Source: Actinomycetes bacterium
GTDB lineage: Bacteria > Actinomycetota > Acidimicrobiia > Acidimicrobiales > SZUA-35
DNA length: 61,408 nucleotides
Assembly (NCBI GenBank): GCA_024276425.1
Contig: JAJRXF010000133.1
Location: 1 to 61,408, forward strand
Direction of reading: 5' to 3'
Shown here in pieces: positions 42,685 through 44,284 of this stretch. A model generated the notes under the pieces. That model searched no databases and had not been told where the DNA came from. It was given only the letters and a program-made list of their open reading frames with translations. Numbering within the stretch: the stretch's first letter is position 1; each line of letters opens with the position of its first letter. Both the position numbers and the translations under genes were made by a program.

Positions 42685-42987
42685 CTAAATTCGACAGCTA
42701 TCCGGCGCGTCGTGATAGACCACGGCAATGAGCTTGTGGCCAAACATTTTCTTCTTGGTCACAAGCTGCACCACATTGGCCTGTTTCACAATCATTGGGG
42801 CCAACAACACCATTATGTCGTCCTTGTGGACTCGGCGGTAGCCGGAAGTTTTCTTGCCCTTCAGGTAGGTATCGACCGACACCTCTTCAACCCCACCTCA
42901 ACCAATTTTCGGAATCCAATCAACAGCAATTGTCCCGCCCTTCTTGCGAACGAGTTCCATTGCCTGGTCAGAAATGTCTACCTGCAT
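42685..42987 (-). CDS. HesB/IscA-like small protein with in-frame UGA, candidate selenoprotein
   Basis: From ATG at 42985-42987, preceded by AAGGTGA at 5-6 bp, the frame reads MQVDISDQAMELVRKKGG, TIAVDWIPKIG, then TGA (42898-42900, codon 30). It continues in the same frame as GGVEEVSVDTYLKGKK, TSGYRRVHKDDIMVLLAP and on to TAG, 100 codons in total. The opening matches HesB/IscA proteins (I-T/S-D-x-A followed by a hydrophobic strand). The UGA replaces the cysteine of the family's S/T-G-C-S-G motif (here I-G-U-G-G). A SECIS-like hairpin starts at the UGA. HesB-like selenoproteins are known from bacterial surveys. Read without recoding, only the 65-residue tail from a GTG is seen. No selA, selB, selC or selD is in the window. 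Alternative: a simple nonsense mutation. Confidence 0.7.
42863..42898 (-). promoter_or_regulatory. SECIS-like stem-loop immediately 3' of the in-frame UGA
   Basis: On the minus strand, AGGUGGG (beginning with the A of UGA) pairs with CCUACCU, 7 bp including one G-U. GUUGA then pairs with UCGAU, 5 bp with two G-U, with a single bulged A between the stems. The apical loop is AGAGGUGUCGG (42876-42886), with GGU at +15 to +17 after the UGA. Bacterial SECIS elements have this form: a stem directly after the UGA and a G/GU-containing loop roughly 16-37 nt downstream. Folding was done by eye. Confidence 0.6.
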
Positions 42988-43075
42988 GACTTTCACCTTA
43001 GTTTCTTGGGTTCAGCTTCAGTTTCTCGGGTGCAGTTTCCTGGCAAATCCGGAGGTGACGGCCACGTCCGGCGGC

Positions 43076-43682: not shown

Positions 43683-44200
43683 TTAGCTGCGCCGGGAGTC
43701 TGGTTGTGACTCCCATCGCGACTCGGGTGCTGGTCGAGGTTTCTGGAGCGGCCAGCCGCGCTCGCTCGGCCCAACTCTCTTGAGGTACTCAAGCCGCTCA
43801 AGCGCCTCAGCCAAAGTCGCAATGGCGCCAGCGGGAACCCACCAACAAACCGTGGCCGCTTCAACGGTGCTGCTCATCCACTCTCGACGTCGGCGAAAAT
43901 AGTCCACATGGCCGCTCTTCATCACAAAGTTATGCAGTGTCTCCAGACTCTCCCAAATCGAATAGTTGACAATGACGTTGGGGTCATCGAAGCCTGGAAC
44001 CTCGATATTGCTGGAACCTCGATATTGGAAGAGGCCCCGCCCTCCTGATCTTTCAAACGCCAAACAAACCCAGGCGCCGACTCGGCCAGCTCATTGATGG
44101 GGGCTAGGGCGGCCAGGAACTCCGCTGATTGGGGGCTGTCTAACGGTTGAAGAAGTCGGGACAGATTCAGTTCGGCAAGATGCCAGTCACTCTCGATCAC
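43683..44200 (-). pseudogene. DUF3291 protein gene split by a 17-bp tandem duplication
   Basis: Two overlapping frames together encode one DUF3291-family protein. The first reads WHLAELNLSRLLQPLD...PGFVWRLKDQEGGASSNIEVP, the second SSNIEVPGFDDPNVIVNYSIWESLETLHNFV...RRREWMSSTVEAATVCWWVPAG. They are separated by a perfect 17-bp tandem duplication at 43994-44010/44011-44027. Deleting one copy restores a single 166-codon frame from GTG at 44200 to the stop at 43683, which argues the break is recent. As it stands, translation ends at 43922. DUF3291 proteins are small ABM-like proteins of unknown function. Programmed slippage, or copy-number phase variation, is an alternative. Confidence 0.85.
43994..44027. 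repeat. Perfect 17-bp tandem duplication
   Basis: CTGGAACCTCGATATTG is present twice head to tail (43994-44010 and 44011-44027). The period is not a multiple of three and shifts the DUF3291 frame. Confidence 0.97.
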
Positions 44201-44284
44201 ACCGATGGCACTAGCCAATAGGCCTCAGATTCGACCTCACCTCCATCTCTGGGTCCAAAACGTCGGTCCGGTACACTCCTGGCC

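Follow-up and report, generated by a model that had tools for sequence, protein, structure and literature searches.

We analyzed a DNA stretch of 61,408 nucleotides (hereafter, the window), which is contig C115 of the source genome (3.95 Mb, a draft assembly in 203 contigs). Its minus strand carries a gene of 100 codons with a UGA at codon 30 as the sole break; the features of this gene are listed in Table 1. Translation from position 42987 to 42685 with TGA taken as selenocysteine (Sec, U) yielded MQVDISDQAMELVRKKGGTIAVDWIPKIGUGGVEEVSVDTYLKGKKTSGYRRVHKDDIMVLLAPMIVKQANVVQLVTKKKMFGHKLIAVVYHDAPDSCRI, followed by TAG. An earlier note, made from the letters of the window, had described the same frame with the UGA at the same place and, in addition, coding-like third positions on both sides of it. 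Our retranslation agreed with the frame, whereas the statement about third positions was only partly true, as GC3 rose from 0.46 in the part before the UGA to 0.70 in the part that follows. The same-strand neighbors are a carboxylesterase gene downstream and, upstream, a gene for a protein without a Pfam match. Elsewhere in the window, a minus-strand DUF3291 gene is split into ORFs 43922–44218 and 43683–44063 by a frameshift that results from a 17-bp tandem duplication (CTGGAACCTCGATATTG twice) at positions 43994–44027; this is either genuine damage to the gene or an artifact of assembly.

Table 1. Features of the candidate selenoprotein gene, in window coordinates
Feature	Position	Strand	Evidence
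Selenoprotein gene (predicted)	42685..42987	minus	100 codons and TAG, Sec at codon 30; 37 aligned homologues, NF041239 match with E 1.2e-9, purifying selection 5΄ and 3΄ of the UGA
In-frame UGA, predicted Sec30	42898..42900	minus	UGA in 41/47 homologues, Cys in the other 6
Ribosome-binding-site-like AAGGTGA	42993..42999	minus	Seen in the sequence, about 6 bases 5΄ of the ATG
Putative SECIS hairpin GGUGUC-GGUC-GAUACC	42868..42883	minus	Near-invariant synonymous codons, two compensatory pairs, missing from Cys members
C-terminal D-S-C-R-I, including the conserved Cys98 that may partner Sec30	42688..42702	minus	Late Cys in 44/47 homologues

The sequence of the window by itself is weak evidence for a recoded frame, because it contains 91 frames of this layout, each at least 100 codons long and interrupted by a single TGA, four of which also have an ATG and an SD-like motif. 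We therefore rely on homologues. Among 99 related genomes searched, 38 contained a homologue (one match being a short fragment), and most of these genomes were labeled as Acidimicrobiales. The 37 homologues that were read had UGA at the codon-30 position in 35 cases and TGT (Cys) in two (G005 and G015). A sample of 396 genomes from the phylum contained the gene in 12 and contributed ten new homologues, six with UGA and four with Cys. In total, 41 of the 47 actinobacterial homologues had UGA and six had Cys at this position; homologues do extend across the UGA, with UGA or Cys aligned to it, which was one of the checks set by the earlier note. Homologues were also sought on plasmids and on viral contigs, and none were found. 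In each of the eight homologue pairs tested, the proportion of synonymous differences was higher than that of nonsynonymous differences, both 5΄ and 3΄ of the UGA. At the level of sequence, the homologue comparison settles the matter and confirms that the gene at 42685–42987 is real.

These homologues also bear on two readings in which the UGA is not recoded. If the UGA were a true stop codon, the first 29 codons would give a peptide of their own, and another gene would start from the GTG at 42882. An ORF under translation table 11 does exist at 42685–42882; however, the Cys homologues read through this site without a break, purifying selection acts on both sides of the UGA, and a SECIS-like hairpin lies just 3΄ of it, so that we consider this reading highly improbable. 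Even less credit can be given to a sequencing error or a pseudogene: although the window comes from a single draft assembly, the same UGA occurs in 40 other genomes of several families. Reading of the UGA as Trp was likewise rejected, since UGA-free homologues have Cys at the site and never Trp. Because the same UGA and the same RNA hairpin are kept in 41 actinobacterial genomes, the UGA at codon 30 of the window gene is almost certainly read as selenocysteine.

The source genome encodes the full set of selenocysteine machinery, consistent with the earlier proposal that this organism makes selenoproteins: tRNA-Sec (selC) scored 65.7 bits, where the cut-off is 47, SelB scored above its cut-off, and SelA and SelD were matched with E-values of 2.8e-118 and 1.1e-113. 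Furthermore, selA was present in 40 of the 41 genomes with the UGA gene (the assembly of the remaining one is 80 percent complete) and in two of the six genomes with the Cys gene, being missing from the other four (Fisher's exact test, P = 4e-4, uncorrected for phylogeny). G005 and G015, which carry Cys, are two of the three genomes without a selA match in the window's own family. In the homologue tree, whose deep branches are weak, at least three changes between Sec and Cys were required. The recoding proposed in the earlier note is thus borne out by the UGA and Cys homologues, by the downstream hairpin and by the machinery. The selD gene of the source genome (contig C2:16019–16936, minus strand) itself has an in-frame UGA in HGAGUGCK, followed by a hairpin with GGUC in the loop, as read from its letters and as in the window gene. 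Because of this UGA, selD is likely a selenoprotein gene, and it is very likely that the source genome has at least one selenoprotein gene besides that of the window.

We further examined the hairpin downstream of the UGA. Its loop, GGUC, lies 20 nt from the UGA and is closed by GGUGUC/GAYACC (GACACC, or GAUACC in the window), and an outer A-U pair between positions 42884 and 42867 brings the stem to 7 bp. In the model of bacterial SECIS elements (PMC13188914), a hairpin follows the UGA at a distance of 16–37 nt and has a G near the start of its loop, and the window element, with its 7-bp stem, 4-nt loop and 20-nt spacing, fits this model. In the 35 UGA relatives, the commonest residue at each position from +5 to +10 (counted in codons from the UGA) is always encoded by the same codon, apart from two isolated cases that include the GAT of the window itself, whereas the neighboring codons vary. 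The six UGA genes from the phylum sample kept GAGGTGTCGGTCGACACC identical in every letter, and the hairpin codons exhibited little or no synonymous change in the eight tested pairs. Two compensatory stem changes were found, from G-C to C-G in L072 and from U-A to G-C in L074. By contrast, the hairpin was lost in the Cys members, including both Cys genes of the related genomes, and the peptide at this site drifts among them (EVSVST, EAAIDT, EVAIDT and EIAFDT, compared with EVSVDT in UGA members).

The folding energy of the 7-bp hairpin was –7.8 kcal/mol. One of its pairs in the window copy is a G-U wobble, and a G-A mismatch occurs in the stem of three of the 35 aligned copies. In addition, the best predicted fold of the window copy with the hairpin was 1.4 kcal/mol less stable than an alternative fold; the assignment is therefore carried by the comparative evidence. 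We conclude from this evidence that the hairpin represents a bacterial SECIS element, because its synonymous sites hardly vary among UGA genes, whereas those of Cys genes have drifted. The protein motif EVSVDT, which varies among Cys members, may also owe its fixation to this element. The frozen hairpin may be an example of how an RNA element shapes the sequence of a protein.

The earlier note had assigned the protein to the HesB/IscA proteins, with the UGA at their conserved cysteine. The PF01521 profile did not match the window protein, and among the 37 aligned members it gave one weak match (E 0.026); the sole Pfam match of the window protein, Rap_GAP (E 0.1), was taken as chance. A sequence search of the PDB with the family profile also gave no match. 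We then modeled the protein with AlphaFold using a 37-row alignment (pLDDT 87, pTM 0.77). The eight top-ranking chains in a Foldseek search of this model all belonged to A-type carriers or closely related proteins, and VIA-align gave Z scores of 9.7 for SufA, 9.3 for IscA and 8.2 for DsrR, compared with at most 2.2 for unrelated chains. When the family was aligned by hhalign with 30 A-type carriers of the same lineage, residue 30 fell on Cys35 of the carriers, that is, on the first IscA cysteine (E 6e-4, with a probability of only 28 percent). In the absence of a PF01521 match, the link to HesB/IscA rests on the predicted fold and a weak profile alignment, both of which agree with the earlier assignment, and the window protein very probably has the HesB/IscA fold.

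The earlier note had also remarked that only one late Cys is present and that the C-terminal IscA pair is lacking. This is the case: Cys98 stands alone, and the three homologues out of 47 that lack a late Cys are L071 and two C-terminally extended members, L063 and L064 (genomes G006 and G016). The extensions of the latter two are acidic and Ala-rich and comprise ~40 residues. Each of the 31 genomes searched also encoded an ordinary A-type carrier. No conserved operon partner was found in 27 neighborhoods. An aldo/keto reductase gene adjoins the gene in six of these (L082, L084, L087, L090, L092 and L093), head-to-head in five, and is not seen in the window. With modest confidence, we favor a Sec/Cys protein with a redox or metal-binding role over a standard Fe-S scaffold, and it is probable that Sec30 and Cys98 act together in such a role.

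Of these two roles, we favor the redox pair first, at roughly even odds, in which a selenenylsulphide couple of Sec30 and Cys98 would reduce a small molecule or a protein partner and carry no cluster. The retention of the late Cys in 44 of 47 homologues and the loss of the Cys-X-Cys of A-type carriers agree with this role, as does the view that most uncharacterized selenoproteins are redox proteins (PMC13188914). However, three homologues have no late Cys, and C98 falls in the low-confidence tail of the model, so that no contact between Sec30 and C98 can be claimed. A less likely but plausible second choice is that two subunits use Sec30 and Cys98 to bind iron, another metal or a cluster, which would make the protein a selenium version of an A-type carrier. 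The predicted IscA/SufA fold and the location of Sec on the first ligand position are in line with this idea, but the protein lacks the second cysteine of the C-terminal pair and the same genomes already have an ordinary three-cysteine carrier.

Taken together, we propose that the product of the window gene is a single-domain selenoprotein of the IscA/HesB fold that arises by SECIS-driven recoding and in which Sec30 and Cys98 have a redox or metal role, and we assign a probability of roughly 0.78 to this explanation as a whole. SelB bound to the downstream GGUC hairpin would bring Sec-tRNA to the UGA, and translation would continue past it, presumably with insertion of Sec, to give the 100-residue protein. 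Sec30 would occupy the site of the first cluster-binding cysteine of A-type Fe-S carriers, and their C-terminal Cys-X-Cys would be replaced by the one conserved Cys98. The two residues would most likely function jointly, either in redox chemistry through a selenenylsulphide or by providing two ligands for a metal at the interface of a dimer. It is about as probable as its opposite that this is an actinobacterial lineage of IscA/HesB-fold selenoproteins with a near-invariant SECIS in which Sec and one Cys are left of the three cluster ligands, and whose redox or metal function has no described counterpart among A-type carriers.

These results would add a well-supported selenoprotein lineage for Acidimicrobiales and other actinobacteria; a literature search on this subject found no paper that, judged by title, dealt with this lineage. 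Ordinary gene callers would truncate such UGA-containing genes. The Sec and Cys versions of the gene provide a natural set for testing what selenium adds, and the predicted fold would tie the unexplained CC/Se group (NF041239) to IscA/HesB.

Finally, we compared the family with known systems. The nearest named family of the window protein was NCBIfam NF041239, which it matched over profile positions 1–75 of 91 with 38.1 bits, below the curated cut-off of 40; all 37 aligned homologues matched this profile (best E 1.7e-10). NF041239 is the CC/Se motif family, a predicted selenoprotein family (Moorella thermoacetica) with the motif CxxU (PMC13188914); its representative is WP_265736915.1. The further selenium papers that were searched did not mention Moorella. 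In contrast to CxxU as tabulated there, the window protein has K27 three residues before Sec, and no aligned member has Cys at that position. Because it lies 1.9 bits under the cut-off and lacks CxxU, we describe the window protein as a variant near NF041239 rather than as a member. In the known HesB-like selenoproteins (TIGR01911), Sec takes the place of the first HesB cysteine, and the window family would share with them both this position and an IscA-like fold. However, their motif is UxGP (PMC13188914), whereas the clade of the window protein mostly has GUGG, GUSG or GUGK, and none of the 37 members matched TIGR01911 at E-values up to 5. By sequence comparison, the family is thus nearest to NF041239 and not to TIGR01911.

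The A-type Fe-S carriers IscA, SufA and ErpA (PF01521) share the predicted fold, and their first cysteine corresponds in position to Sec30; they have one early Cys and a C-terminal Cys-X-Cys, whereas the window protein has Sec30 and Cys98 only. DsrR (2k4z), an IscA-like protein of a sulphur oxidizer, has the same fold as that predicted for the window protein (Z 8.2) and is not known to have cluster-binding cysteines. Unlike in DsrR, the first cysteine position in the window protein would be occupied by Sec.
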